This document shows, piece after piece, positions 21,500 to 35,983 of a stretch of DNA of 64,000 bases. Both the position numbers and the translations under genes were made by a program. Below the pieces are notes generated by a model that made no database searches, had not been told where the DNA came from, and worked only from the letters and a program-made list of their open reading frames with translations. Source of the DNA: Egibacter rhizosphaerae (GTDB lineage: Bacteria > Actinomycetota > Nitriliruptoria > Euzebyales > Egibacteraceae); contig NZ_CP036402.1 of assembly GCF_004322855.1 (NCBI RefSeq), positions 4,434,001 to 4,498,000 on the forward strand. Reading direction: 5' to 3'. Position 1 is the stretch's first letter; each line of letters begins with the position of its first letter.

Positions 21500-22540
21500 C
21501 TACTGGTAGGTGACCCGCTTGCGGCCCTGCCGCAGCTGGACGACGGTGATGAACGCCACGGCGGCGAAGAGCAACAACGACTGTGCGGCCGCGAGGCCGA
21601 TGCGGTCGTCGCGGAAGGCGTTCTCGGTCACTTCGTAGATGAGGATGCTCGTGGCGCCCAGTGGCCCGCCGCCGAAGACGTCAGCGACCGCGTAGGCGTC
21701 GAAGAACGCGAACACCGTGCTGGTCACGAGCAGGAACAGCGTCATCGGTGTCAGGAGCGGGAAGGTCACGTGCCGGAAGCGCTGCCACGGGTTCGCCCCG
21801 TCCACGAGGGCTGCCTCGAGCGTCTCGCTCGGCAGGCTCTGGTAGGCCGCCGTGTAGAAGACGAGGTTGAAGCCCACCCGGTTCCAGATGAGGGTGACGA
21901 TGAGCACGACCTGCGCCAGCGTGCGGTCGCGGAACCATTCCGGCTGGATGCCGAACGGCTCGAGCACCGCGTTGACCATCCCGAAGTTCGGGTTGAACAG
22001 CGCCAGGAACACGATGCCGCTGATGGCCGTCGACAGGGCGAGCGGCCAGATCAAGAGCAGCCGGTAGACCCGGGCTCCGCGGATGTTCTGGTTGAGCAGG
22101 GACGCCAGGAGGAGCGAGATCGCGATCGTCGACACGATCACGATCGTCGAGATCACCGCGGTACGGACCACCGAGTCGTAGCTCGACGGGTCCGTGAAGA
22201 GCCGCACGAAGTTGTCGATGCCCACGAAGTTCTGCTGCTGACCGTAGAAGCGGACGTTGAAGAGCGACAGCCAGAACGTCCGCAGCATCGGGTAGTAGAT
22301 GAACAGCGCGAGGATGATGATCGACGGCAGCAGGAACCACAGCGCGGCGCGGCGACGCGGGAACGTCGCCGCGTGCGTGATGGCGAACGCGCTGGCGGCG
22401 TCGTCCCCCGAGTCCCGCCGCTTCCTCCGTCCGGAACCCTCGGGGGGAGACGGCCGGTCGGCCGCCTCCCCCGCTCGGTGAGTTGCGCCATGTGGGCTAC
22501 TCGACGTCGGCGTTGTATTCCTGCAGGACGCTGTCGGCAT
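21500..22540 (-). CDS. Carbohydrate ABC transporter permease, UgpA/MalF type, N-terminus doubtful
   Basis: The membrane part (from about residue 63: Arg-Arg-Arg-Ala-Ala-Leu-Trp-Phe-Leu-Leu-Pro-Ser) is a standard six-helix sugar permease with the EAA loop Glu-Ala-Ala-Leu-Val-Asp-Gly-Ala-Asn-Pro-Trp. In the given frame the only start is ATG 22540, which overlaps the binding-protein gene by 44 bases. A better ATG at 22491, eight bases beyond that gene's stop, is in another frame. Adding one G to the GGGGG run near 22470 would join it to the permease. Either a long overlap or a homopolymer error is present. Confidence 0.85.
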   Translation of the reverse strand: MPTASCRNTTPTSSSPHGATHRAGEAADRPSPPEGSGRRKRRDSGDDAASAFAITHAATFPRRRAALWFLLPSIIILALFIYYPMLRTFWLSLFNVRFYGQQQNFVGIDNFVRLFTDPSSYDSVVRTAVISTIVIVSTIAISLLLASLLNQNIRGARVYRLLLIWPLALSTAISGIVFLALFNPNFGMVNAVLEPFGIQPEWFRDRTLAQVVLIVTLIWNRVGFNLVFYTAAYQSLPSETLEAALVDGANPWQRFRHVTFPLLTPMTLFLLVTSTVFAFFDAYAVADVFGGGPLGATSILIYEVTENAFRDDRIGLAAAQSLLLFAAVAFITVVQLRQGRKRVTYQ

Positions 22541-23936
22541 CCTGCTTCGACGCCTCCAGCGCCTCCGCCGGGTCGAGGCCCTCGAACATCGCGGCCTCGG
22601 CCGCGTCCAGCACGATCGACCGGATCTGCGGGAACTGCCCCATGACCGCGCCCTGCGTCGCCGGGCTCACCTCGGTCTCCTCGAGCTGGTCGAGAGCGGT
22701 CCCGAAGTTCGGGTTCTCGTCGAACCAACCCTCCCCTTCGAGCTCCTCACGGGACTCCGTGCGGACCGGGAAGTACCCCGTGGCCTGGTGCCAGGCCTTG
22801 TCCTGCTCGGGCTCGGAGAGCCAGTTGATGAACTCCATCGCCGCGGCGATCTCCTCCTCGGGCTGGTCCTCCAGCACGTAAAGGCTGGCGCCGCCGATCA
22901 CGGTGCCGTGACGCTCGGCGTCGTCGGGAATCGGCAGGAAGGCGGTGCCGAGTTCGTTGTCGAGCTCCTCGAGCGAGTCCTGGTAGGCGCGGGTCGACGC
23001 GGTGGAGTCCACCGACATGGCGATCTGCCCGTCGGCCATCAGGGTGCGCGGGTCGTCCCAGTCCTCGCGGGCACCGGAGTTGATCCAGTAGCCCTCCTCG
23101 TCCATCTCCTGCCACCACTCCATGACCGCGACGCCCTCGGGGCTGTCGAGGAGCACCTCGTCGGCGCGGCCGTCACGACCGTTCTCGTTGTTCGCGAGGA
23201 GCCCGCCCTGGTTCGCGACCATCTGCTCGAAGAACCAGGCGTGGATCGGCATGCCGAAGCAGCCGTCGAGGTCGGTCTCCGCGATGATGTCGTCGCACGC
23301 GTCCATGATCTCGCCGAACCGCTGGGGCGGATCGTCAGGGTCGAGGCCGGCCTCCTCGAAGATGTCCCGGTTGACCATCATGATCGGGTTCGAGGAGTTC
23401 CACGGTGCGCTGTAGAGCCCGCCGGTCTCGTCCGTGTAGTAGCTCGAGACGGCCGGGATGTAGTCGTCCGGGTCGATCGCACCCTCCTGGTCGAGCTCGT
23501 GGATCGGCGCGAAGATCCCCGAGTCGCGAGCGATCTGGGTCCCGATCTCGTAGAGCTGCGCGATGTGGGGTGCCTGGTCGGTGCCGGCTGCGCTCACCGA
23601 CTGGTCCAGGACCTCCTCGTAGGTCCCGCGGTTCTGGGCGTTCACCACCACGCCGTCGGTCTCTTCGCTGTAGGCCTGGGCGAGTTCTTCTTCGATGAAG
23701 ATCTCGTCGTCGCCACCGAGGCCGTGCCAGAAGTCGATGACGATGTCGCCCTCCTCGCCGCCGAGGTCCTCGGGCTCCACGTCCTCGTCGGGGTCGTCGT
23801 CCTCGTCTTCGTCGGCGACGGCCTCCTCCTCGTCCTCCTCATCGTCCATCACGTCTGCAGGTTCCTCGTCGGCGCCTTCACCGCAGGCGGCCAGGAACAA
23901 GGCGAGAGCCAGTGTGAGCCACAGCACACGCTTCAT
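22497..23936 (-). CDS. Extracellular solute-binding lipoprotein, UgpB-like, with acidic linker
   Basis: A 479-residue family 1 (UgpB/MalE) binding protein. The lipobox is Leu-Phe-Leu-Ala-Ala-Cys, giving Cys18. Residues 20-66 are almost all Asp/Glu, an acidic tether before the folded domain that starts Ile-Val-Ile-Asp-Phe-Trp-His-Gly. That Trp-His and later Trp-Asn-Ser-Ser-Asn-Pro, Ala-Thr-Gly-Tyr-Phe-Pro-Val resemble UgpB. It is the first gene of the importer operon. The ligand may be glycerol-3-phosphate, a glycerophosphodiester or a sugar. A Pho-box-like repeat lies 135 bases upstream. Confidence 0.9.
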   Translation of the reverse strand: MKRVLWLTLALALFLAACGEGADEEPADVMDDEEDEEEAVADEDEDDDPDEDVEPEDLGGEEGDIVIDFWHGLGGDDEIFIEEELAQAYSEETDGVVVNAQNRGTYEEVLDQSVSAAGTDQAPHIAQLYEIGTQIARDSGIFAPIHELDQEGAIDPDDYIPAVSSYYTDETGGLYSAPWNSSNPIMMVNRDIFEEAGLDPDDPPQRFGEIMDACDDIIAETDLDGCFGMPIHAWFFEQMVANQGGLLANNENGRDGRADEVLLDSPEGVAVMEWWQEMDEEGYWINSGAREDWDDPRTLMADGQIAMSVDSTASTRAYQDSLEELDNELGTAFLPIPDDAERHGTVIGGASLYVLEDQPEEEIAAAMEFINWLSEPEQDKAWHQATGYFPVRTESREELEGEGWFDENPNFGTALDQLEETEVSPATQGAVMGQFPQIRSIVLDAAEAAMFEGLDPAEALEASKQDADSVLQEYNADVE

Positions 23937-24173: not shown

Positions 24174-24959
24174 CTATCGGGACCGGGTCGAGGTGGTGAG
24201 CCGGGTGCGCACGGCGTCGTGGATCAGCCCGTTGGAGGAGAGGATCGTCCCGTCGCCGTGAAGGACTCCCTCACCGCTCCACGTGGTTGCCCGACCCCCG
24301 GCCTCCTCGATGAGACACACCAGCGCGGCGCGGTCCCAGATGGCGAGATCGGCTTCGAACGCTGCCTCAGCCATCCCCCCTGCGACCAGCATGTGCATCC
24401 AGAAGTCGCCCATCCCGCCGGTCTTCCACGAGTCCGTGGCCAGCTCGCCGAGGCGTTCCCACAGCACGGGATCGTCCCGGAGGAACTCGAGGCCCCCGTG
24501 TTGGAGGTGGGCGTCCTCGAGGCGCTCGATCGCGCTGACCCGCACGGGTCGGCCGTTGCGGCGTGTGCCGAGACCGGTTCCGGCGTCCCACCGTTCGTCG
24601 AGTGCCGGCGCGCTCGCGACGGCGACAACGACCTCATCGTGGACGACCAGAGCGATGAGGGTGCCGAAGACCGGAACGCCGCGTAGGAAGTTCTTGGTGC
24701 CGTCGATGGGGTCGATCACCCATGTCGGCCTCCCGGCCTCCAGGGCGCCGCCCTCCTCCTCCCCGAGGATCGCGTGGCCGGGCAGGCTCCTCGCGATCCA
24801 CTCGCGCAGCGCCGTCTCGATCTCATGGTCGGCCGCGGTCACGGGAGAGCCGTCGGGCTTGGCGGACGCCGCCACCGGGCCGCCGAAGTACCGGCGGGCG
24901 ATCTCGTCGGCGGCATCGGCCATCGCGAGCGCCTCGCCGCGCAGCCCCGCGATGTCCAC
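24174..24959 (-). CDS. hisN: Histidinol-phosphatase/inositol monophosphatase family
   Basis: A 261-residue Mg-dependent phosphatase of the IMPase fold. Motifs: Pro-Val-Thr-Ala-Ala-Asp near residue 40, Gly-Glu-Glu-Glu-Gly-Gly near 66, the metal-site Trp-Val-Ile-Asp-Pro-Ile-Asp-Gly-Thr near 80, and Ile-Trp-Asp-Arg-Ala-Ala near 209. The Thr-Lys-Asn-Phe-Leu-Arg-Gly extension and overall pattern match actinobacterial HisN. The start is GTG 24959, four bases after the stop of the upstream unknown gene. No other his gene is nearby, so histidinol phosphate is likely but not proven. Confidence 0.83.
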   Translation of the reverse strand: MDIAGLRGEALAMADAADEIARRYFGGPVAASAKPDGSPVTAADHEIETALREWIARSLPGHAILGEEEGGALEAGRPTWVIDPIDGTKNFLRGVPVFGTLIALVVHDEVVVAVASAPALDERWDAGTGLGTRRNGRPVRVSAIERLEDAHLQHGGLEFLRDDPVLWERLGELATDSWKTGGMGDFWMHMLVAGGMAEAAFEADLAIWDRAALVCLIEEAGGRATTWSGEGVLHGDGTILSSNGLIHDAVRTRLTTSTRSR

Positions 24960-24962
24960 GGA

Positions 24963-25436
24963 CTACTGGTCCTCGACGACGTCCTCGAACCGCAGCACGA
25001 GGTCGTTCGGTTGCACCGTGAGACTGAGATCGTCGCGAGGGGCCCAGAGGGGGATGCACGGGCCCTGCCCCGCGTGCCCGCAGAGGCAGACGACCAAGGT
25101 CCCCGAGGGGTTCATGCCGATGAGCTGTCGCGCGTACGACAGCAACTCGGTCATGGACGAGGTTCCACCGGTGCGGCGGTAGTACGCGTTCGCCCATCGC
25201 GACTCCGGTCGGCCGTAAACCGCCAGCGCGGTGCCGCGCTTCAACTCGGCCACGTCGTCCAGCCGCTCCGCGCCGGCCAGCACTTTGTCCTGGCTCGCGG
25301 CCTTGCCGACCCTGACGGCGGCAGCGGGTTCGCTCAGCGCGCCGGGCAGATCGGCGAGCTCGTAGTTGCCGGCGGCCTGAGCGGCCTTCTGGCGGTCCAC
25401 GGCCACGCGGTAGACCTGGTCGTTCTTCGTCGCCAC
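24963..25436 (-). CDS. Unknown protein with a C-x-C-G-H-x5-C cluster
   Basis: A 157-residue protein with no recognised family. The N-terminal two thirds are helical and charged. A hydrophobic strand leads into Val-Val-Cys117-Leu-Cys119-Gly-His121, and Cys127 follows in Gln-Gly-Pro-Cys, which could bind a metal. The end (Leu-Thr-Val-Gln-Pro-Asn-Asp-Leu-Val-Leu-Arg-Phe-Glu-Asp-Val) looks like a beta strand pair. There is no signal peptide or membrane helix. It is four bases upstream of hisN and almost certainly co-transcribed. The start is GTG 25436. Confidence 0.7.
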   Translation of the reverse strand: MATKNDQVYRVAVDRQKAAQAAGNYELADLPGALSEPAAAVRVGKAASQDKVLAGAERLDDVAELKRGTALAVYGRPESRWANAYYRRTGGTSSMTELLSYARQLIGMNPSGTLVVCLCGHAGQGPCIPLWAPRDDLSLTVQPNDLVLRFEDVVEDQ

Positions 25437-25783
25437 GCCGTCGCACCCTTCAGTCGGTCGCTCCGTGCCCCCGTAGTCTAGCGAGACGGCCGATCGGGCC
25501 GGGCACCGGTGTCAACAGGCGCCGTTGCCCGCTTTCTGTTCGGATCCCTTGACGACTACGGTGAGCAAGTGCATGGTGACGCTCCGGGGAGCCGCCAGCG
25601 ACGATCCCGCCCGTCTCTGGCCGGCCCAGGCGCGGCGACCGTCGGATTCGTGGGGGACCCGCGGTCGCCGCGCCACTTTCACGCTCCAGGGCCGCGCCCG
25701 CGGCGATGTGGCACATCACAACGAGTGTGCACACTGACGGTGTGCTGACGCGCTCGCGCGCGCGAGCGGCAAGGAGGGCCCGG
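25437..25783. other. 347-base gap with a perfect palindrome
   Basis: No supported gene; short frames here look like GC-driven shadows. It must hold the promoter for the unknown-hisN pair on the minus strand and that for the small basic protein on the plus strand. CGCTCGCGC-GCGCGAGCG (25751-25768) is a perfect 18-base palindrome just before the basic protein's ribosome site. It could form a hairpin in the mRNA leader or be an operator. Confidence 0.4.
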
Positions 25784-25921
25784 ATGCGGAGTCTGCTCTA
25801 CAAGATCGCGCGGCTCATGGGCGACTACCAGGCCGTCAAGAAGGGCCGGGTGGGCCGGCGTGTCGGTCGCCGTGTCGCGGGCCGGGCCACCGGAAAGGGC
25901 CTTGGCAAACTCTTCCGTTGA
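25784..25921 (+). CDS. Small basic protein, 45 residues
   Basis: Begins Met-Arg-Ser-Leu-Leu-Tyr-Lys-Ile-Ala-Arg-Leu-Met-Gly-Asp-Tyr-Gln-Ala-Val and continues with Gly/Arg/Lys repeats to Leu-Gly-Lys-Leu-Phe-Arg. AAGGAGG six bases before the ATG is one of the best ribosome sites in the window, which supports a real gene. Short proteins of this shape (aromatic-basic helix, then Gly-Arg-rich tail) recur in actinobacteria without a known role. Binding to nucleic acid or membrane is plausible from charge alone. It converges with tRNA-Glu. Confidence 0.65.
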   Translation: MRSLLYKIARLMGDYQAVKKGRVGRRVGRRVAGRATGKGLGKLFR

Positions 25922-25924
25922 GTG

Positions 25925-25997
25925 TGCTCCCGACGGGATTCGAACCCGCGCCGCCGGCTTGAAAGGCCGGTATCCTGGACCGCTAGATGACGGGAGC
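25925..25997 (-). tRNA. tRNA-Glu (anticodon TTC)
   Basis: A 73-nt cloverleaf on the minus strand. The acceptor stem GCTCCCG pairs with CGGGAGC. The anticodon arm is CCGGC-CTTTCAA-GCCGG with anticodon TTC. The T-arm has GGTTCGAATCC. The discriminator base is A and CCA is not encoded. All stems pair. Confidence 0.96.
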
Positions 25998-26032
25998 GCA
26001 GAGGGCAGCGTACCTGCCCACCCGTGCCGTCG

Positions 26033-27577
26033 TCAGCTTCTGCGGCGCCGCGACGCGAGCACCTGGAGCAGACCCAGCGCGAGCGCGAGCGCGATCACGG
26101 GCCACTCCCCGAAGCGGACGAAGGGCGTCGCGCCGTCGCGCAGCTCGAGCGTGCCGACCAGCTCGTCCGCGGCGTACAACTCCGTCTGTGCCGGTTGCGC
26201 GCCCCCCGGTTCGATGATCGTCGAGCGGCCGGTCGTCGCGGCGATCGCGGCTCCACGACCGGTCTCGGCGGCGCGCAACCTCGCGGCCTGCAGGAGCTGA
26301 TCGCTGACCGGCGCCTCCTCGTAGCTCGCCTGGGTGGTGAGCGCCGTGAGCGCCTGCGTGTCCGCGGCGCTGTCGCGCACGAGCCGCGCGAAGGTCACCT
26401 CCCACGAGACGACGGTCCCGAGGCTCACGGCATGGTCCGGCACCGCGAGCTCGCCCGGCAGGCCCCCGGAGACCATGTCGGTGGGCACGAGGTCGCCGAC
26501 GTTCGCGATCCACCCGAGCGCGTTCCGGAACGGGACGTACTCGCCGAACGGCACGGCGTGACGCTTGGCGTACGCATCGACCACGGTGCCGTCGGGCTCG
26601 TAGAGCACGTTGCGGTTGTAGAAGCGGTCGGGTTCCTCGGGCGAGCTCGTGCCCGCGAGCAGCGGAGCGGGCAGGTCCCCGGCGGCCTCGTGCAACGCGG
26701 CGCCCGCTTGTTCCGGCGTGGCCCCGCGCAGCACGCCCTCCCCCCACAGCAGGAGGTCGACGTCCTCGTCGAGGCGCCCGACGGCCGCGATGTGGTCGGC
26801 GAGCAGTTCCTGCCGCATGCCGGGGCACTCGGCGGCGTACTCGCCGGGACAGGGATCGTCGACCTGGATGATCGCGACCTCGAGGCTGCCGACGTCCTCG
26901 GTCCAGTCCGCCGCTCCGATCGCGGCGACCGAGCCGGTGGCGGCCAGGGCCAGGATCAGCGGGACGAGCGCGCGCAGCGGACCCTCGCCCCACCATTGCA
27001 GGGTCGCGGCGAGGGCGGCCGCCACTGCGACCAACAACCCGGTCAGCCCGAGCGTGCCGACGATCGCGGCTCCCTCGCGCACCGGGAACTCGGCGCTCGA
27101 CAACCCCAGCTGACCCCATTCGAACCCGCCCATCGGTGCGCGCGCCCGCAGGGCCTCGACGAGCGTCCACGTCGCCGCCACGGCGACCGTCCAGCCCAGT
27201 GGGCCGAGCCGACGGGCGGCCACGGTGGCCGCAGCGCCCGTCAGGACCCAGAAGGCCCCCTGGATCGGTGCGAGCGCGAGATAGGCCAGAACCTCCAGCT
27301 GCAGCGCCCACGCGAACACCACGCCCGCGAAGGCGACCCCGTAGGCGAGTCCCGTGATCGCGCCGCGGCCGGCCGTGCCGGACGCAGCGCACGCCCCGAG
27401 CCCCACCGCGACGCCGAGGAGGGCGAGCGGCGCGAGGTCGCTCGCCGGGAACCCGGTGCTCGTGAGGACCCCTCCGAACGCCGACAGCGGTACGAGGACC
27501 CACAGGGAGCGGGCGGGGCGACCGGGCCCGGCGCCCATGCCTGCCGGACGCGCCGCCGAGAGCGACTCAGCGGTCAT
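26033..27577 (-). CDS. lnt: Apolipoprotein N-acyltransferase homologue with Ser for catalytic Cys
   Basis: A 514-residue membrane protein: about seven hydrophobic segments (residues 25-220), a C-N hydrolase domain (230-475), and a final helix. Lnt adds the third acyl chain to lipoproteins. The triad Glu (Glu280, Leu-Trp-Gly-Glu-Gly) and Lys (Lys338, Tyr-Ala-Lys-Arg-His) are in place, with Val-Pro-Phe-Gly-Glu-Tyr-Val after it. The position of the nucleophilic Cys is Ser391 (codon TCG) in Val-Val-Ser-Trp-Glu-Val. The following Glu393 is kept. The protein may be inactive, a serine variant, or changed in role. It overlaps the DUF4193 gene by four bases. Confidence 0.85.
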   Translation of the reverse strand: MTAESLSAARPAGMGAGPGRPARSLWVLVPLSAFGGVLTSTGFPASDLAPLALLGVAVGLGACAASGTAGRGAITGLAYGVAFAGVVFAWALQLEVLAYLALAPIQGAFWVLTGAAATVAARRLGPLGWTVAVAATWTLVEALRARAPMGGFEWGQLGLSSAEFPVREGAAIVGTLGLTGLLVAVAAALAATLQWWGEGPLRALVPLILALAATGSVAAIGAADWTEDVGSLEVAIIQVDDPCPGEYAAECPGMRQELLADHIAAVGRLDEDVDLLLWGEGVLRGATPEQAGAALHEAAGDLPAPLLAGTSSPEEPDRFYNRNVLYEPDGTVVDAYAKRHAVPFGEYVPFRNALGWIANVGDLVPTDMVSGGLPGELAVPDHAVSLGTVVSWEVTFARLVRDSAADTQALTALTTQASYEEAPVSDQLLQAARLRAAETGRGAAIAATTGRSTIIEPGGAQPAQTELYAADELVGTLELRDGATPFVRFGEWPVIALALALGLLQVLASRRRRS

Positions 27578-27984
27578 ACGCAGTCAAAGCAGATCTGCTC
27601 CTCGGGATCGGCGAGCTGCGCCTGACGCTTCACGAGGAAGCAGGACAGACACGTGAACTCGTCCTCGCCGGCCGGGATGTTCGTCGGTGAGGAGCGGGGT
27701 GCCTCCCCGACCGTCGCGAACTCCTCCTCGAGGTCCTGCTCCCGCGCAAGGATGACGTCGAGCGACTCCTCCTCCTCCTCGGGGGCGTCGTCGTCATCGA
27801 GATCGTCGCTGTCGTCGGCGGTGCTCGTGGATCCTTCGTCGGACTCCTCGTCCTCGGTGGTCGTGTCCGTGTCCTCGCTGTCGGGGAGCTCGTCGATCTT
27901 GTCGATCTGCTCCAGACCGCTGAGTTCATCCTCCTGGTCGAGGTCAGTGAACTCTTCGTCGCCGATGTCGTCGGGTGTCGACAT
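27574..27984 (-). CDS. DUF4193 zinc-ribbon protein with acidic N-terminus
   Basis: A 136-residue protein. Residues 1-95 are an Asp/Glu/Ser/Thr-rich disordered tail. The C-terminal 40 residues match DUF4193: Glu-Phe-Thr-Cys-Leu-Ser-Cys-Phe-Leu-Val-Lys, then Gln-Leu-Ala-Asp, then Cys-Phe-Asp-Cys, a four-Cys zinc ribbon. This family is widespread in Actinobacteria and of unknown function; the tail here is longer and more acidic than in mycobacterial members. ATG 27984 has a GGAGCG-like site. It is the first gene of a two-gene operon with lnt. Confidence 0.88.
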   Translation of the reverse strand: MSTPDDIGDEEFTDLDQEDELSGLEQIDKIDELPDSEDTDTTTEDEESDEGSTSTADDSDDLDDDDAPEEEEESLDVILAREQDLEEEFATVGEAPRSSPTNIPAGEDEFTCLSCFLVKRQAQLADPEEQICFDCV

Positions 27985-28660
27985 GCCCGCTCCGCTCGCC
28001 TCTCAGTAGGTGCGGCTTCCCGAGCCCTTCGGGCTCCGCCGGTTCGTCCATGCTGGTCGTGTCAGGGTCGGCCGAAACCCGTCGGCCACAACCCTCACCG
28101 GGGTTGCCCCGGCGATGGGGGTGGGCAAACGCATCAGTGTGCCCGCGTGTTCCCGACCGTGTCGCGTGTGGTCCTTCGGCGCGCTCGCCGTGTGCCCGTC
28201 GTCCACGCTCCCGGCTTCCCGTGGGGGTGGAGGGGAGATGGGCAGAGGTCGACGGGCCCCGGGATGGCCCGGGGCCCGTCGGCGCGAGCATGGACGACCG
28301 TTGGCACCGTCGCGGGAAACGGGCACTCCCACGCGTTCTCTACTGAGCCGTCCGTTGCCCGTCCCGGTCGCACCGGGTACTCGGCACTCATGATGCCTTC
28401 AAGCTCCGTTGCACGCCGCCGCCTCGGCCACCCTCGGATGCCCCCGTGGGTGGCGGGTGGCGAGACGAACCCGTCGGCGTGGTGCGTGGCCCCAATACGG
28501 GCGAACCCGTACGCCACGAGGCGGGACCGTAGGCCTCGGACGAGGCGCCGTCAACCTACTCGCTGGCGCCTGTGACCTGCGAGGAAGGGGTGAACATCGA
28601 GGTCACCGGCCGACCGATCGAACCCGTTTCGCGTCCGCTCTGTGGCCCGGTGGGTCAGGG
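27985..28660. other. 676-base gap rich in perfect hairpins
   Basis: No convincing ORF: frames on both strands are GC shadows without ribosome sites or family motifs. Perfect hairpins are GAGCCC-TTC-GGGCTC (28022-28036), GGCCGA-N6-TCGGCC (28070-28087, enclosed by AGGGT/ACCCT), CCGGGG-TTG-CCCCGG (28098-28112), and a 13-bp stem with loop ATGG (28251-28280). The first three lie 40-130 bases before the DUF4193 start, so they could be a structured leader. The last could terminate the RNase HI transcript. No rnpB or tmRNA signature was seen. Confidence 0.5.
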
Positions 28661-29338
28661 CTAACGTTCGCTTCGGCGGTAGGCCGTCGCGAGGGCGTCC
28701 GCGTACTCGTTCCAGCGCGAGCCGGCGTGGCCACGGATCCATCGCAGCTCGATCTCGGGGCGGGCCGTCGCGCGCTCGTACAGGGCCTTCACGAGGTCGA
28801 GATTCTCGACCTCGCCGTTCTTGCGGCGCCACCCCCGCGCCTTCCAACCCGGCGCCCACTTCGTGATGGTGTCGACCGCCAGGCGGCTGTCGGTGAACAC
28901 GGTCACGGCCTCGCCCGGGGGCACGAGGTCGTAGCCGGCGATGAGCGCCGTGAGCTCCATTCGGTTGTTCGTGGTGTGCGCCTCCGACCCGCAGGCCTCG
29001 TCGACGATCTCGCCCTCGAGGACGTAGACGGCCCCCCAACCCCCGGGCCCGGGGTTCGGGTCCGCCGCCCCGTCGGTGAAGACACCGGTGTCGGGCCCCT
29101 CGTCGAAGTGCTCGAGGACCTCCGCGGTCGTGCGGTCGGCTTCCCGGCTGCCACCGCGCCGACGCGCGCCACCCTGCTTGCTGGGGGCCCCCTTGGGATC
29201 CGCGCCGCCGGAGCCGCCGGCGCGTCGACCGTGGCACCGCCGACAGCGCGCGGGGCGCCAGTTCGGGTACTGCGCGACCACCCGGTCCGGCAGGGTGAAC
29301 GAGGCCCCGCAGTCGGTGCAGACGAGCGGTTCGGTCAT
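28661..29338 (-). CDS. rnhA: Ribonuclease HI with N-terminal zinc ribbon
   Basis: A 225-residue protein. Residues 7-35 hold two Cys-x-x-Cys pairs (Cys7/Cys10, Cys32/Cys35), a likely zinc ribbon. After a Gly/Arg linker the RNase HI domain (85-220) has the full Asp-Glu-Asp-Asp set: Asp89 in Phe-Thr-Asp-Gly, Glu128 in Asn-Asn-Arg-Met-Glu, Asp150 in Phe-Thr-Asp-Ser, and Asp214 in Glu-Tyr-Ala-Asp. The helper His is in Arg-Gly-His-Ala-Gly. It cuts the RNA strand of RNA-DNA hybrids. ATG 29338 was chosen because the zinc ribbon starts right after it; longer frames add nothing conserved. Confidence 0.93.
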   Translation of the reverse strand: MTEPLVCTDCGASFTLPDRVVAQYPNWRPARCRRCHGRRAGGSGGADPKGAPSKQGGARRRGGSREADRTTAEVLEHFDEGPDTGVFTDGAADPNPGPGGWGAVYVLEGEIVDEACGSEAHTTNNRMELTALIAGYDLVPPGEAVTVFTDSRLAVDTITKWAPGWKARGWRRKNGEVENLDLVKALYERATARPEIELRWIRGHAGSRWNEYADALATAYRRSER

Positions 29339-29396
29339 GTCGGCGTTCCCACGGCTGTGCTCCTGGTCTCTCAGGCAGGCGACGTTGTCGAGGCGG

Positions 29397-29783
29397 CTAC
29401 ACGATGCCGTGCGCGACGCCGACGAGCAGCGGCGGCAGGCTCCCGGCCATGGCGGCACTGGCGATCGTCCAGACGACTCGTCGTCGCGACGGCAGCTCGT
29501 CGGCGGCGAGGTCCAGCAGGCCGGCGAGCACGAGCCACCCGGCCGTGACCATCACGCCGAACAGCAGCCCCACCAAGGCGGCAAGGCCGCCGGCGCGGCC
29601 GCTGCCCCCGAGCCCCACGACGCCGGTGACGAGCAGGCCACCGACGGTCAGGGCCACGAGTCCGCCGGCTCGCCGCGCGCGCCGAATCACCTCCGTGTCC
29701 CGTGAGGGACCCTGCGGGACGTCACCATCGTTCGACGGGTGCGCCGGGACGCCGTCGGGAGGGTCCACAGGGTTCCGGGTCAT
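29397..29783 (-). CDS. Small membrane protein, three predicted TM helices
   Basis: A 128-residue protein of unknown function. A polar N-terminal tail (1-38) is followed by hydrophobic helices at about 40-60, 66-90 and 103-126, rich in Gly, Leu and Val. Its ATG overlaps the acyl-CoA dehydrogenase stop as ATGA, so the two are co-translated. No family was recognised. A link with fatty-acid oxidation is suggested only by position. Confidence 0.65.
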   Translation of the reverse strand: MTRNPVDPPDGVPAHPSNDGDVPQGPSRDTEVIRRARRAGGLVALTVGGLLVTGVVGLGGSGRAGGLAALVGLLFGVMVTAGWLVLAGLLDLAADELPSRRRVVWTIASAAMAGSLPPLLVGVAHGIV

Positions 29784-30934
29784 CGTGGATCGAGCAGGCC
29801 GCGGGCGATCACGAGCCGCTGGATCTGGTTGGTGCCCTCCAGGATCTGCAGCACCTTGGTCTCGCGGAACCATCGTTGGACGGGCTCGTCCGCGCGGCAG
29901 CCGGCTCCCCCCAACAGCTGGACCGCGTCGGTGGTGACGCGCATCGCCCCGTCGGTCGCGGTGAGCTTGGCCATCGCGGCGAGCTGGCCGTAGGACTCCC
30001 CCCTGTCGCGGCGGGTCGCGGCGTCGTGGAAGAGGGCGCGCGCGGCGGCCACTGCGGCGGCCATGTCCGCGAGCATGAACTGGACCCCTTGGAAGTCGCT
30101 GATCGACTGGCCGAACTGCTCGCGTTCCCGTGCATGGTCGACGGCACGGTCGAGCGCGGCCTGAGCGACCCCGACCGCGCACGCCGCGATCCCCAGCCGC
30201 CCCCCGTCGAGGGCCCGAAGGGCGATCGGGAAGCCCTCGCCCTCCTCGCCGAGGAGGTGATCGGCGGGGACCCGCGCGCCGTCGAGCACGAGCTGGCCGG
30301 TGGGCGAGGCCGCGAGTCCCATCTTGCGTTCCGGCGGTGGGAAGTGGAGGCCCGGCGTGTCGGCGGTGACGAGGAACGCGCTGATGCCGCGCGTCCGATC
30401 GTTGCTCGTCCGGCACAGCACGACGTAGACGTCGGCCGCCCCGGCATGGGTGACCCACGCCTTCGTGCCGGTGAGCACGTACGCATCACCGTCCCGCTCC
30501 GCGCGCGTGTCGAGCGCGGCCGCGTCCGAGCCCGATTGGGGCTCCGAGAGGGAGTACGCGGCGAGACGGCGACCGGTGAGCAGGTCGGGCAGGATCATCT
30601 CGCGCGGGCCAGGGTGGGCGTGGCGGAGCACCACGCCCGTGGCGAGGTGGTGGACCGACAGTCCCATCCCGAGCGCGAGGGCGCCGCTCGCGAGGGCCTC
30701 GATCGCGCCGAGCGTCACCGGGGTCGGCGCGCCTCCTCCCCCCTCGCCACGATCGAACGGGAACCCCGCGAGGCCGAGGGTCGCGGCCTCGTCGAAGAGG
30801 TCACGGGGGAACCGCCCGCGCGCCTCGTCAGCCTCGGCGCGCGGCGCGACCCGCTCGCGCACGAACTCGTGCACGCGCGCGAGCAGGGCGGTGTGTCGGT
30901 CGGTGTCGGCGCCTGGCCGGGTACCGGTCACCAC
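29780..30934 (-). CDS. Acyl-CoA dehydrogenase
   Basis: A 384-residue FAD enzyme introducing the alpha-beta double bond into acyl-CoA. Signatures: Tyr-Ser-Leu-Ser-Glu-Pro-Gln-Ser-Gly-Ser-Asp near residue 130, Gly-Thr-Lys-Ala-Trp-Val-Thr near 155, Gln-Leu-Leu-Gly-Gly-Ala-Gly near 335, and the catalytic Glu in Gln-Ile-Leu-Glu-Gly-Thr-Asn near 367. The chain length it prefers cannot be read from the sequence. GTG 30934 (or 30931) has a GAGGAGG site. It lies 28 bases after the M24 peptidase gene on the same strand. Confidence 0.92.
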   Translation of the reverse strand: MVTGTRPGADTDRHTALLARVHEFVRERVAPRAEADEARGRFPRDLFDEAATLGLAGFPFDRGEGGGGAPTPVTLGAIEALASGALALGMGLSVHHLATGVVLRHAHPGPREMILPDLLTGRRLAAYSLSEPQSGSDAAALDTRAERDGDAYVLTGTKAWVTHAGAADVYVVLCRTSNDRTRGISAFLVTADTPGLHFPPPERKMGLAASPTGQLVLDGARVPADHLLGEEGEGFPIALRALDGGRLGIAACAVGVAQAALDRAVDHAREREQFGQSISDFQGVQFMLADMAAAVAAARALFHDAATRRDRGESYGQLAAMAKLTATDGAMRVTTDAVQLLGGAGCRADEPVQRWFRETKVLQILEGTNQIQRLVIARGLLDPR

Positions 30935-30962
30935 CGTCGCCTCCTCGCCTGTGTCGCTCGCG

Positions 30963-32084
30963 TCAGTGGGCTCGCGCGGCTACCGCCGGCTGCGTGCGGC
31001 GGGGTGCGCGGTCCAGGCGGTTGAGCACTTCGGCGCCGTCGTCGGTCACGACGACGATGTCCTCGATGCGCATCCCGAAGCGGTCCGGGATGTAGATGCC
31101 CGGCTCGATGCTGAAGGCCATCCCCGGTTCGAGCGCTGACTCCCGGCCCTCGACCAGGTAGGGCTCCTCGTGCTCCTCCAGGCCGATCCCGTGGCCGGTG
31201 CGGTGGATGAAGTAGTCGCCGTAGCCCGCGTCCGCGAGGTGGGCGCGGGCGACGCGGTCGATCTCGCCCACCGCGACGCCGGGGCGCACGGCCTCGGTGG
31301 CGACACGCTGGGCATCCTCGAGCACCCGGTGGGCCTCGCGGTAGCCCTCCGGCTCCCCGGTCTCGCCCACGAGGTAGTTGCGCGTGCAGTCCGAGCAGTA
31401 GCCGTCGACCGAGCCCCCGATGTCGACGACCACCGGATCCCCTTCGGCGAGGATCCGATCGCCGCTCTCGTGGTGCGGGCTGGCGCCGTTTGGGCCGCTC
31501 GCCACGATGACGAACCGCACGTCGTCGTGACCCTCCGCGACGATGCGGTCCGCGATCTCGCGGGCGCACTCGGCCTCGCTGCGTCCCGGGCGCAGGATCT
31601 CGGGACACGCCTCGTGAACCCGGTCGATCGCGCGACCCGCTCGGCGGAGAGCGTCGACCTCCGCGGCCGTCTTGCGCATCCGCAGCTGCGCGGTGACCTC
31701 CGAAGCCAGGCGCCAGGAGGCACCGGGCAACGCCTGCTGCAGGCCGAGCACGAACATGCCCCAGAGGCGGTCGCCGATGGCGAGGCGGTCGCCCGCGCCG
31801 TCGAGCAACCCGGCGACGAGCGCGTACGGGTCGTCGGTCTCGTCGTGGACGGCGAGTCGCAGGTTGTCCGGGAGCCCGGCATCCTCGGCGCGAGCGACCT
31901 CCAATCGCGGCACCACGAGATGGTGTGCGCCGTCGGCGCGGGCGACGAGCAGCGTGAGGCGTTCGAGCGGCAGCGCGTGGTACCCGGTGAGGTACTGCAG
32001 GTCGGCACCGGGCCCCACGAGGAGGGCGTCGATGCCCGCCCGTTCCATCGCGGCCGCGGTGCGGTCGAGCGGGACGTGGGCCAC
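30963..32084 (-). CDS. M24 family Xaa-Pro aminopeptidase
   Basis: A 373-residue metallopeptidase with an N-terminal creatinase-like domain (1-140) and a pita-bread catalytic domain. All five metal ligands are visible: Asp221, Asp232, His298 (in Thr-Gly-His-Gly-Ile-Gly), Glu327 (Ser-Ile-Glu-Pro-Gly) and Glu341 (Arg-Ile-Glu-Asp). It releases N-terminal residues before proline. The start is GTG 32084, seven bases after AAGGAG; the longer open frame to 32309 was rejected. Confidence 0.92.
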   Translation of the reverse strand: MAHVPLDRTAAAMERAGIDALLVGPGADLQYLTGYHALPLERLTLLVARADGAHHLVVPRLEVARAEDAGLPDNLRLAVHDETDDPYALVAGLLDGAGDRLAIGDRLWGMFVLGLQQALPGASWRLASEVTAQLRMRKTAAEVDALRRAGRAIDRVHEACPEILRPGRSEAECAREIADRIVAEGHDDVRFVIVASGPNGASPHHESGDRILAEGDPVVVDIGGSVDGYCSDCTRNYLVGETGEPEGYREAHRVLEDAQRVATEAVRPGVAVGEIDRVARAHLADAGYGDYFIHRTGHGIGLEEHEEPYLVEGRESALEPGMAFSIEPGIYIPDRFGMRIEDIVVVTDDGAEVLNRLDRAPRRTQPAVAARAH

Positions 32085-32178
32085 GGGAGGACTCCTTGGG
32101 GTCGCGACCGGTGCGGCGCCATCGTATCGAGGGCAGGCCGAGGCCCGGGCCCGGGTGCCCCCACAGCGGGCGGGCGCC

Positions 32179-33099
32179 CTACACCGAGATGCGCAGGATC
32201 CCGGGGAGCAACGAGAAGCGGGCGGGCGTCCTGCCCAGGAGCTCGCCGTCGGCCTCCACCCGCCGTCCGGCCGGCTCCGGCACCGCCACGAACGGGGACT
32301 GCCATTCACGGATCTCGGGGTGGGGCAGGTGGCCGCCCCGATACAGCTGGGGGGTCAGCGTGAAGACCTGGCTCCGCTGACCCGTGAAGGCGAGGACGTT
32401 GAACCGACCGCTGTCGGGCAGCGCGCGCGGGGCCACGCGCATCCCGCCCCCGAAGAACTGGCCCTTCGCGATGACGAGGTCGACCAGGTCGACGGTCTGC
32501 TGGCCGTGGCGGATCTCCACGACGGTGGGTTGCCGGTCGACCCCCCTGATCGCGCCCCACGCGGCGAGCAGGTAGCGCACGCGGCCGAGGCGGCGCGGCA
32601 GACGGCTCGCGAGGTGGGCGACCTCCGCGCCGTACCCGACCTCGGCGAGGTTCACGAAGTACCGCCGCGCCGTACCGCCGTCCTCGTTCGTGGTCTCGGC
32701 GACGCCGAGGTCGGCGCTCATGGTCGTCGGGTCCAGGAGCCGCCCGACCGCCTGCTTCGGGGGGAGGCTCAGCCCGAACGTTCGGGCGTAGTCCCCCCCG
32801 TGCCCGGCGGGCACGATGCCGAGCACCGCGTCCTCGGCGACGGGCTGGTCGTCGGCCACCATGCCGTTCACGACCGCTTGGACGGTGCCGTCGCCCCCGA
32901 CGGCGACCAGGTGCCGCCAGCCCTCGTCGAGGCTCTTGCGGGCGGCTCGCTCGGTGCCCGCCCGATCGGCCTCCTCGATGATGTCCGCGTCGGCCCCGCG
33001 GGCGCCGAGTTCGTCGCGCAGCGCCGAGGCGACCGCCCGCGCGCGCCCGGCCCCCGCAGTGGGGTTGACGAGCAGGCGGAACGGGCCCGGCCGGCTCAT
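32179..33099 (-). CDS. Diacylglycerol/sphingosine kinase family lipid kinase
   Basis: A 306-residue DagK/YegS-type kinase. Seen: the N-terminal Leu-Leu-Val-Asn-Pro-Thr-Ala-Gly-Gly-like motif (here Thr-Ala-Gly-Ala-Gly), the nucleotide-binding Val-Gly-Gly-Asp-Gly-Thr-Val near residue 66, Ile-Val-Pro-Ala-Gly-His-Gly-Gly-Asp-Tyr near 95 (where most members have Gly-Thr-Gly-Asn-Asp), and Asp-Gly-Glu near 287 in the C-terminal lobe. It would phosphorylate diacylglycerol or a similar lipid. ATG 33099 starts the protein directly before the conserved strand. It lies downstream of helY. Confidence 0.88.
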   Translation of the reverse strand: MSRPGPFRLLVNPTAGAGRARAVASALRDELGARGADADIIEEADRAGTERAARKSLDEGWRHLVAVGGDGTVQAVVNGMVADDQPVAEDAVLGIVPAGHGGDYARTFGLSLPPKQAVGRLLDPTTMSADLGVAETTNEDGGTARRYFVNLAEVGYGAEVAHLASRLPRRLGRVRYLLAAWGAIRGVDRQPTVVEIRHGQQTVDLVDLVIAKGQFFGGGMRVAPRALPDSGRFNVLAFTGQRSQVFTLTPQLYRGGHLPHPEIREWQSPFVAVPEPAGRRVEADGELLGRTPARFSLLPGILRISV

Positions 33100-33250
33100 C
33101 CGGGTTCTCCGACAGCGCAGCAGGACCGTGTGGTGGGGCGGGTCCTGCGGGAACGGCAGACCGGGCTGGTGGTGTCGTCCACGGTGGCGGCTCGCAGTCG
33201 TCAGCTCGGCGGGCCGGCGGCGTGCCGGCCCGAAGGGTACGCCGGCAAGC

Positions 33251-35983
33251 CTAGAGGTCCGCGGCGACGACGCCGCGCACGATGGCTCGATGGGCGGCTT
33301 GGGACGGGCTGGCGAGGCCGGTGTCGGCGTCGCGTAGCTGCCGAAGTAGGTCGGCGACCCGCTTCGTGCCACGGACGAAGTCCCCGGGGGTGAGCTCGCT
33401 GCCGTCGAGCGCCGCGTCGAGGTGCGCGCCGCGCGCCCAACGGTGCACCACCTCCACGAAGCCGGGGTCGGGTTCGCGCGTGACCGGGAGCCCGGCCGCC
33501 TGCTCGTGTTCCGAGAGCCGCTGCCATCGCTCGTCGATCGCGTCGAGGACCTCGTCGACCCGTGCCGTGGGCGAGGCCACCGGCGGGGGGTCCTTCATGC
33601 GGGTCTCGTGGACGAACACGCTCGCGACCGCGGCGAGCTCGGCCGGATCCAGGTCGGTGAGCAGCCCGGCACGCAGACACTCCGCGAGCAGCAGGTCCGC
33701 CTCGAGATGCAGGGCCGCGAGCGCCAGCCCATCGTCGGTCGGCCGTGGAGCCTCCTGCGGGCCGTCGAGGTACCCGTGGTCACCGAGAACGCCCACGATG
33801 CGGCGGAACGTGTCCACGAGCGAGTGCGTGTGGCGAGCGACGCGCCGCTCGATCTTGGCCGTGTCCCGCTCCAGCTCGTCGTAGCGGTGCGCCCACACCT
33901 CGATCTCCGATCGGGCCGGGTCGTGATGCACCGGGTGCTCGCCGATCGACTCGCGGAGCTCCGCGATACGGGCTTGCCGTTCGGCCTCCTCCGCATCGGT
34001 CTCGGGCAGGGTGTCGCCGTTCCCGGCGTCCCCCGGGGACCCGACGCGGGGCGCCGTCTCCACCTGTCGGAGCGCGTTCGCGACCTGTTTGCGGTAGGCG
34101 GGCTGGCGGGGTCCTCCGGCGTGTGGCAGCGGGACCCTGCCGACGCGCTCGGGCGGCCCGTCGAGCTCCCGCGGGCCCAAGCGGACCAGCTTGCGATCGG
34201 TCGTGACCGCTTCGGCCAATGGCGTGCCCGACTTCGTCCAGATCACCCGTACCACCGCGACGGGCGTGTCGTCCCTGCGACCGGGGGGTCGCACGACCTC
34301 CCCGGGGGCGAGGTCGGCCAGCGCCTCGGTGATCGCCCGTTGCCGCGCCTCGCGACGCGCCTTGGCGCCGGCCTTCTCGAGGCGGCTGAGCTCTCGGCGC
34401 AGCCCCCAGTAGTCGGGGAAGTCCCCGTAGTCCGAGACGAGGTTCTCCGCGTAGCCCTCCAGGGCCTCGCGGTTGCGCTCGATGCGTGCCTCGTCGTCGA
34501 CGACCCGGTTGCGCGCCTGCCACTGCGCGAACGAGGCCTCGAGCAGCTGCTCCGCGCCCGCGCGGTCGTGACGGCGCAGCAGGTTCACCGCCATGTTGTA
34601 CGACGGCTGGAAACGGCTGATCAGTGGCTCGACGCGACGCCCGACGAGGCTCGCGACGGTCGTGAAGTCGACGTCGCGCTGGTGCAGCACGACGGCGTGC
34701 CCGCGCTCGTCGAGACCGCGCCGCCCCGCCCTCCCGGTGAGTTGGGTGAACTGGCCGGGGCTCAACAGCACGTGTTGCTGACCGTCCCACTTCTCGAGTC
34801 GCTCGATCACCACCGTGCGTGCGGGCATGTTGATGCCCAGGGCGAGGGTCTCGGTCGCGAAGCACACCTTCACGAGTCCCCGGACGAACAGCTCCTCGAC
34901 GGTCTCGCGGAACAGGGGGACCATGCCCGCGTGATGGCTCGCGATGCCGTGGGCGAGCGCCTCGCGCCACGGGCCGAAGTCGAGCACGTCGAGGTCGGCC
35001 CGCTCGAGGTCCGCGGCCCGGTCGTCGACGATCGCGCGGATCTCCTCACGCTCCTCCTTCGAGGTGAGGCGCACCCCGTCGCCCACCAACTGGCCGACCG
35101 CCCCGTCGCAGCCCGCTCGGCTGAACACGAACACGATCGCCGGCAACCACCGGCGCTCGCGCAGGGACGCGACGAGGTCGCTGCGACGCGGCGGCAACAG
35201 CTTCGTGCCTCCGCCGGGACCACGGCCCCGCCGGCCGCGCTGCTGGGCGCGTCGCTCCAGCATGACGAGGTCCGGGTTCGGGACGCCCCCGCGTGCCTCG
35301 GCGGCGGCCGCCTCGCGAGCGGCTTTCGCGCCCTTCCGTCCCTGCCCGCCCTGTTTGCCGGCCTTGAAGATCGGCTCGATCCGGTCGTTCACCGCGTAGT
35401 GGTGGGCCAGTGGCACGGGGCGACGCTCGCTGATGACGACGTCGCAGCCGTCGCGGGTGGCCGCGAGCCAGGCCCCGAACTCCTCCGCGTTGGAGACAGT
35501 GGCCGACAAGCAGGCCAGCTGCACGTCGGCGGCGAGTTGGACGATCGTCTCCTCCCAGACCGCGCCGCGCTCGCGGTCGGCGAGGTAGTGGACCTCGTCG
35601 AGCACCACGGTGTCGAGCCCGTCGAGGGCGCGCGACCGCTCGTAGAGCATGTTGCGCAGCACCTCGGTGGTCATCACAACGACCGGCGCGTCCCCGTTGA
35701 TCGAGTGATCACCGGTCAGCAAGCCGACTCGGCCCTCGCCGTGCTCGCGGCACAGGTCGCCGTACTTCTGGTTCGACAGCGCCTTGATGGGCGTCGTGTA
35801 GAAGCAGCGGCGGCCCCGATCGAGGGCACGCCACACCCCGTACTCCCCCACCACCGTCTTCCCGGCGCCCGTGGGGGCGGCGACCAGCACGCTGCGACCC
35901 TCGTGCAGTGCCGTGATGCCGGCGTCCTGGAAGTCGTCGAGGGGGTGTGCGTAGCGCGCGGCGAAGCGGTCGGGATCACTCAT
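33251..35983 (-). CDS. helY: Ski2-like ATP-dependent helicase HelY
   Basis: A 910-residue superfamily 2 RNA helicase. Motif I is Ala-Ala-Pro-Thr-Gly-Ala-Gly-Lys-Thr (residues 35-43), motif II Asp-Glu-Val-His near 128, motif III Ser-Ala-Thr near 160, and motif VI Gln-Leu-Thr-Gly-Arg-Ala-Gly-Arg-Arg-Gly near 415. A basic insertion (about 205-265) precedes the second RecA domain. The C-terminal 450 residues are Ski2/Mtr4-like helical domains ending with a DSHCT-type region. M. tuberculosis helY sits downstream of tatC; here the subtilase gene is between them. The start is ATG 35983. Confidence 0.93.
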   Translation of the reverse strand: MSDPDRFAARYAHPLDDFQDAGITALHEGRSVLVAAPTGAGKTVVGEYGVWRALDRGRRCFYTTPIKALSNQKYGDLCREHGEGRVGLLTGDHSINGDAPVVVMTTEVLRNMLYERSRALDGLDTVVLDEVHYLADRERGAVWEETIVQLAADVQLACLSATVSNAEEFGAWLAATRDGCDVVISERRPVPLAHHYAVNDRIEPIFKAGKQGGQGRKGAKAAREAAAAEARGGVPNPDLVMLERRAQQRGRRGRGPGGGTKLLPPRRSDLVASLRERRWLPAIVFVFSRAGCDGAVGQLVGDGVRLTSKEEREEIRAIVDDRAADLERADLDVLDFGPWREALAHGIASHHAGMVPLFRETVEELFVRGLVKVCFATETLALGINMPARTVVIERLEKWDGQQHVLLSPGQFTQLTGRAGRRGLDERGHAVVLHQRDVDFTTVASLVGRRVEPLISRFQPSYNMAVNLLRRHDRAGAEQLLEASFAQWQARNRVVDDEARIERNREALEGYAENLVSDYGDFPDYWGLRRELSRLEKAGAKARREARQRAITEALADLAPGEVVRPPGRRDDTPVAVVRVIWTKSGTPLAEAVTTDRKLVRLGPRELDGPPERVGRVPLPHAGGPRQPAYRKQVANALRQVETAPRVGSPGDAGNGDTLPETDAEEAERQARIAELRESIGEHPVHHDPARSEIEVWAHRYDELERDTAKIERRVARHTHSLVDTFRRIVGVLGDHGYLDGPQEAPRPTDDGLALAALHLEADLLLAECLRAGLLTDLDPAELAAVASVFVHETRMKDPPPVASPTARVDEVLDAIDERWQRLSEHEQAAGLPVTREPDPGFVEVVHRWARGAHLDAALDGSELTPGDFVRGTKRVADLLRQLRDADTGLASPSQAAHRAIVRGVVAADL

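Follow-up and report, generated by a model that had tools for sequence, protein, structure and literature searches.

Does an Lnt homologue that carries Ser in place of the catalytic Cys still work as an acyltransferase? The third fatty acid on lipoproteins is normally added by Lnt, which, like the nitrilase superfamily generally, is understood as a Cys enzyme whose Cys-to-Ser form is a dead or stalled laboratory mutant. We addressed this question for a gene in a 64,000-nucleotide stretch of the Egibacter rhizosphaerae genome (the window), which a sequence-only reading had described as an Lnt homologue with Ser at the catalytic Cys.

The window protein and its nucleophile position

The gene and the codons of its catalytic positions lie as follows.

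26033..27577, minus strand: Ser-nucleophile Lnt homologue, 514 amino acids, ATG start, with an LNT_N membrane domain, a nitrilase domain and a C-terminal transmembrane helix
26738..26740, minus strand: Glu280 codon, aligned with E. coli Glu267
26564..26566, minus strand: Lys338 codon, aligned with E. coli Lys335
26405..26407, minus strand: Ser391 codon TCG, aligned with E. coli Cys387

A domain search found both the LNT_N and the CN_hydrolase domains, and the protein scored 171 bits against TIGR00546, the lnt equivalog (cut-off, 132.9). The AlphaFold model, built with 88 sequences (mean pLDDT, 93.8; pTM, 0.92), matched E. coli Lnt (8B0P) over its whole length, with a Z score of 41.7 and an rmsd of 2.6 Å for 476 residues. 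Ser391 sits within VVSWEVTF, and the profile alignment placed it on residue 387 of the solved E. coli Lnt, in a column that is Cys in 144 of 144 Cys-type Lnts, so the sequence-only reading had identified the substitution correctly. It was also right that Glu280, Lys338 and Glu393 are kept and that the Ser codon is TCG; Glu280, Lys338, Glu346 and Glu393 correspond to E. coli Glu267, Lys335, Glu343 and Glu389. Glu343, Tyr388 and Glu389 are essential in E. coli Lnt; at the Tyr388 position, Trp392 keeps an aromatic residue, which is Phe in most actinobacterial Lnts. Since Glu280 and Lys338 of the Glu-Lys-Cys triad are present and the Cys is Ser391, we classed the protein among Lnts as a Ser variant and not as a canonical member.

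We consider the probability of a sequencing error or a decaying gene to be negligible. Nothing that we found supports either, the frame is intact, and Ser is encoded by both TCN and AGY codons among the Ser rows, which come from many independent genomes. Closest pairs of related Ser-Lnts, mostly from Acidimicrobiia, had dN/dS values of 0.05 to 0.19, well under 1, and these genes are under purifying selection. The relatives and the dN/dS values led us to reject both error and pseudogene, and the earlier statement that the Ser is not a sequence artefact held up, as the same Ser, mostly TCG, occurs in independently sequenced relatives. The positions of Glu267, Lys335, Glu343 and Glu389 were invariant in 78 of 78 Ser rows, a count that, like the other residue counts given here, is taken over related sequences and not over independent events.

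Copy number, gene slot and spread

The E. rhizosphaerae genome is one 4.64-Mb contig, estimated to be 95.7% complete. A single match in it exceeded the LNT_N cut-off, the window gene, and a single match exceeded that of TIGR00546. A hidden second Lnt was considered and rejected: the other CN_hydrolase matches include two NAD synthetases, and none has LNT_N over the cut-off. The search for a second Lnt that the sequence-only reading had proposed thus came back empty. Lgt and LspA are each present in one copy. The same reading had put the number of lipoproteins encoded by the window at two or more, which we did not recover; our crude lipobox scan gave one clear case there, a solute-binding protein (22497-23936, minus strand). 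Most relatives are metagenome assemblies, for which sole-copy status is weaker than for the window genome.

The lnt gene occupies a slot that is common to Ser-Lnt and Cys-Lnt genomes.

24174..35983, minus strand: conserved gene slot that includes lnt
27574..27984, minus strand: DUF4193 gene directly upstream of lnt, with a 4-base overlap with the lnt start

The slot runs in the order HelY, DAG kinase, M24 peptidase, acyl-CoA dehydrogenase, RNase H, DUF4193, lnt, a 157-amino-acid protein and inositol phosphatase. It holds a Ser-Lnt in the window and at L262 and L263, and a Cys-Lnt at L255 to L258, L260, L261 and L265. Eight genomes of the window's family and order had the Ser type only (the window genome, G001, G008, G017, G021, G023, G025 and G027, with G017 assigned from a fragment close to G001). 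One genome (G028) had a Cys-Lnt together with a window-type Ser-Lnt, another (G026) had a Cys-Lnt and a different Ser type, and the remaining Lnt-holding genomes of the family and order had Cys only. Ser is therefore fixed in the window's clade but not across the order, where most sister genera have Cys. The avoidance between the window-type Ser-Lnt and the Cys-Lnt gave a Fisher p of 4e-6, or 2e-4 when three Lnt-less genomes were counted, and kinship makes both values optimistic. This near mutual exclusion in one slot is our main ground for assigning the Ser-Lnt and the Cys-Lnt an equivalent role.

Several other features of the neighborhood were recorded. The end of the DUF4193 gene falls inside the lnt start codon, and this gene is the neighbor of lnt in the family's Ser and Cys genomes; the overlap and the kept adjacency suggest that the two may be cotranslated. 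The 157-amino-acid protein (24963-25436, minus strand) has no Pfam match, is well kept (74 to 80% identical in relatives) and always has lnt on one side and the inositol phosphatase gene on the other. A tRNA-Glu (TTC) gene (25924-25997, minus strand), the only tRNA found in the window, is directly downstream of lnt. Two divergent Cys-type CN-hydrolase proteins of about 560 to 650 amino acids, L045 (G027:C87) and L053 (G034:C6), scored under the lnt cut-off and are without the VPFGEYVP motif; apart from L045, the Lnt of G027 is of the Ser type only.

Scanning named genomes yielded 33 further Ser-Lnts, mostly from Acidimicrobiia and unclassified Actinomycetota assemblies. In the group with a Cys pair described below, to which the window protein belongs, 31 of 32 other genomes had no Lnt over the cut-off besides the Ser gene; the exception was G082. 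We also took an even sample of the phylum, 296 Actinomycetota genomes, of which 159 had an Lnt and 137 had none; a Ser-Lnt stood alone in at least 34 of the 159. Two further Ser groups came out of this sample, family f6 (VISFEGDF) and family f27 with its kin (VISWEVFF), as well as Ser second copies in family f29 (L246 and L247), sister to the Cys second copies of family f23. The latter (L173, L181 and L188) make f29 and f23 a recent, neat pair for the Cys-to-Ser change. A search of viral contigs found no relative. The Ser is not confined to the window gene: the window's clade has it throughout, other Actinomycetota groups have it as a fixed state too, and the gene that carries it is usually the sole Lnt.

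Origins of the Ser and the residues that change with it

Trees built with the trait columns masked supported each Ser group (Cys-pair group, 99/98; f27 group, 100/100; f6, 100/100), and the bootstrap trees needed three to four Cys/Ser switches. A single clade of all Ser rows was rejected (AU p = 1.6e-8). A common origin of the three main Ser groups was rejected neither by the AU test (p = 0.063) nor by the pair test (p = 0.128), and a single origin fell only once the f29 second copies were added. On these tree tests, at least two Ser origins can be considered secure and up to four likely. The direction would be Cys to Ser, since Cys is the general state of the family. In situ mutation of a local Cys gene was rejected as well: the AU test rejected a tree that joins the window's Ser group to the Cys-Lnts of the same family and order (p = 0.008), which makes displacement within the slot, or an old duplication with differential loss, more likely. 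The swap is old, conserved and has arisen more than once in related genomes, so the window Lnt appears to be a genuine enzyme variant rather than a damaged gene.

The nucleophile is not the only position to differ. The relevant codons in the window gene are the following.

26849..26851, minus strand: Cys243 codon, first cysteine of an invariant pair, in the loop that corresponds to arm 7 of E. coli Lnt, which holds Trp237
26825..26827, minus strand: Cys251 codon, second of the pair
26330..26332, minus strand: Gln416 codon, at the E. coli Asp413 position

In E. coli, the arm 7 loop holds Trp237 (PMC5500888), which is reported to be essential only for acyl transfer to the lipoprotein, and the loop shifts by about 8.5 Å and covers the substrate cavity (PMC6971011). 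The window Lnt has no Trp in this loop and has a Cys pair instead. Trp occurs there in only 30 of 96 Cys-Lnts, so its presence is a weak criterion outside Proteobacteria. The Cys pair (PC...C), in the loop after the first nitrilase strand, was found in 45 of 45 rows of the window's Ser clade (44 distinct genes), with varying spacing, and in 0 of 144 Cys-Lnts. The idea that the pair always accompanies Ser was dropped, as neither f6 nor f27 and its kin have it, and these two groups showed no conserved Cys. Asp413 contributes to the cavity next to the nucleophile (PMC5500890). Its position is Asn or Asp in 134 of 144 Cys forms versus 1 of 78 Ser forms, and the replacement differs by Ser group (Glu/Gln/Val, Thr, Gly/Ala and Thr). 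At the His425 position, nearly all window-clade rows have Leu, Phe or Met, unlike f6 and the f27 kin.

The simplest reading of two cysteines that are kept throughout at variable spacing, in a loop outside the cytoplasm, is a disulfide, and Cys243 and Cys251 most likely form one that holds the loop. Could one of them instead be the real nucleophile, or a relay from Ser391 to the amine? The restriction of the pair to the window's Ser clade and the mobility of arm 7 over the cavity would fit such a relocated thiol, but the constant presence of both cysteines at variable spacing is what a disulfide predicts, and two other Ser groups manage with no conserved Cys at all; we regard a relocated thiol as quite improbable. 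A specific route in which the nucleophile work is split, with a Ser391 oxyester passing the chain to an arm 7 Cys thioester and then to the lipoprotein amine, seems to us very unlikely. The sequence-only reading would have yielded to a true Cys elsewhere in the protein. Ser391 does occupy the Cys column, but the invariant C243 and C251 in the Trp237 loop call for care on this point.

Function and comparison with known systems

We favor a working acyltransferase of the Lnt fold that uses a Ser nucleophile and takes the place of the usual Cys-Lnt, a reading to which, judged from sequence comparison, we give about an even chance. Such natural enzymes would form a Ser oxyester acyl-enzyme in a pocket rebuilt for transfer, and the acyl chain would then be handed to an acceptor that is presumably the N-terminal amine of apolipoproteins. 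We infer the oxyester and the rebuilt pocket because the loop that differs serves the step at which E. coli C387S stalls, and the cavity residue that differs is part of the pocket lining: this mutant makes an oxygen-ester acyl-enzyme with no onward transfer (PMC6828757), and the Ser mutant has elsewhere been called low in activity (PMC10313180). The transfer step would presumably be rescued by the rebuilt Trp237 loop, with its Cys pair and likely disulfide, and by the changes at the Asp413 and His425 positions. The window gene being the only Lnt in a single-contig genome that holds Lgt and LspA counts for this reading; the C387S stall, the altered Trp237 loop and the behavior of the one reported Ser-Lnt, BCG_2279c of M. 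bovis BCG, count against it. Of the 296 sampled Actinomycetota, 137 live without Lnt, so this lineage cannot be assumed to need N-acylation.

The stall and the fact that the altered loop and cavity residues are exactly those tied to the acceptor step could also point to a changed reaction, in which the chain on the Ser391 oxyester is hydrolyzed or given to a hydroxyl or another amine, as by a phospholipase or other acyltransferase, leaving lipoproteins diacylated. The BCG_2279c result fits this too, but the near mutual exclusion with Cys-Lnt in one slot suggests the same role for both, and a changed reaction appears possible but rather unlikely. When the Cys-Lnt was deleted, BCG_2279c did not N-acylate four lipoproteins, and the authors favored a contributive role for it (PMC3850990). 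A noncatalytic window protein, its fold kept as a lipoprotein-binding scaffold or helper as proposed there, would follow that precedent. Against it, the other catalytic positions are invariant in the Ser rows, the nucleophile position is always Ser with no mixture of residues, and the genome usually lacks an active partner Lnt, all of which make this unlikely. The sequence-only reading had listed an inactive enzyme, a scaffold and an oxygen-ester enzyme without choosing; conservation, sole copy, the slot in common with Cys-Lnt and repeated origin favor a catalytic Ser and argue against decay.

Our search of open-licence papers for nitrilase-superfamily members with a natural Ser nucleophile came back empty, although this does not show that none exists. 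In the same literature we found no Ser-Lnt reported as an only Lnt or in the slot of a Cys-Lnt, and no description of repeated Ser-Lnt origin, the Cys pair or the Asp413 correlation. If true, a Ser-Lnt that is conserved, has evolved repeatedly and serves as the sole copy would reveal how the second step is rescued in nature, and it would provide natural enzymes for probing the roles of the Trp237 loop and the Asp413 position. It bears on which Actinomycetota produce triacylated lipoproteins, and an lnt annotation is no guarantee of a thiol enzyme.

The closest comparison is with E. coli Lnt (PDB 5N6H and 8B0P; C387S, 5VRH and 8B0M), which the window Lnt resembles in the whole fold, in the Glu-Lys pair and at the Glu343 and Glu389 positions; it differs in having Ser for Cys387, a Cys-pair loop for the Trp237 loop, and changes at the Asp413 and His425 positions. 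BCG_2279c, whose M. tuberculosis counterpart is split into Rv2262c/Rv2261c, shares the natural Cys-to-Ser change at the nucleophile (PMC3850990), but it is a second copy beside a working Cys-Lnt, whereas the window Lnt is a sole copy. L246 and L247 are probably of the BCG_2279c kind. The window Lnt is not, given its sole-copy status, its clade apart from L246 and L247 and the rejected joint Ser clade, and BCG_2279c probably had a separate origin from the window clade, as judged through these two likely relatives. AatD, a glycine N-acyltransferase, is likewise an Lnt homologue with a divergent role (PMC7943197), but unlike the window Lnt it keeps a Cys (C325) triad. TEV protease, an unrelated protein, was evolved in the laboratory to use a Ser nucleophile and regained activity via changes elsewhere in the protein (PMC4576821).
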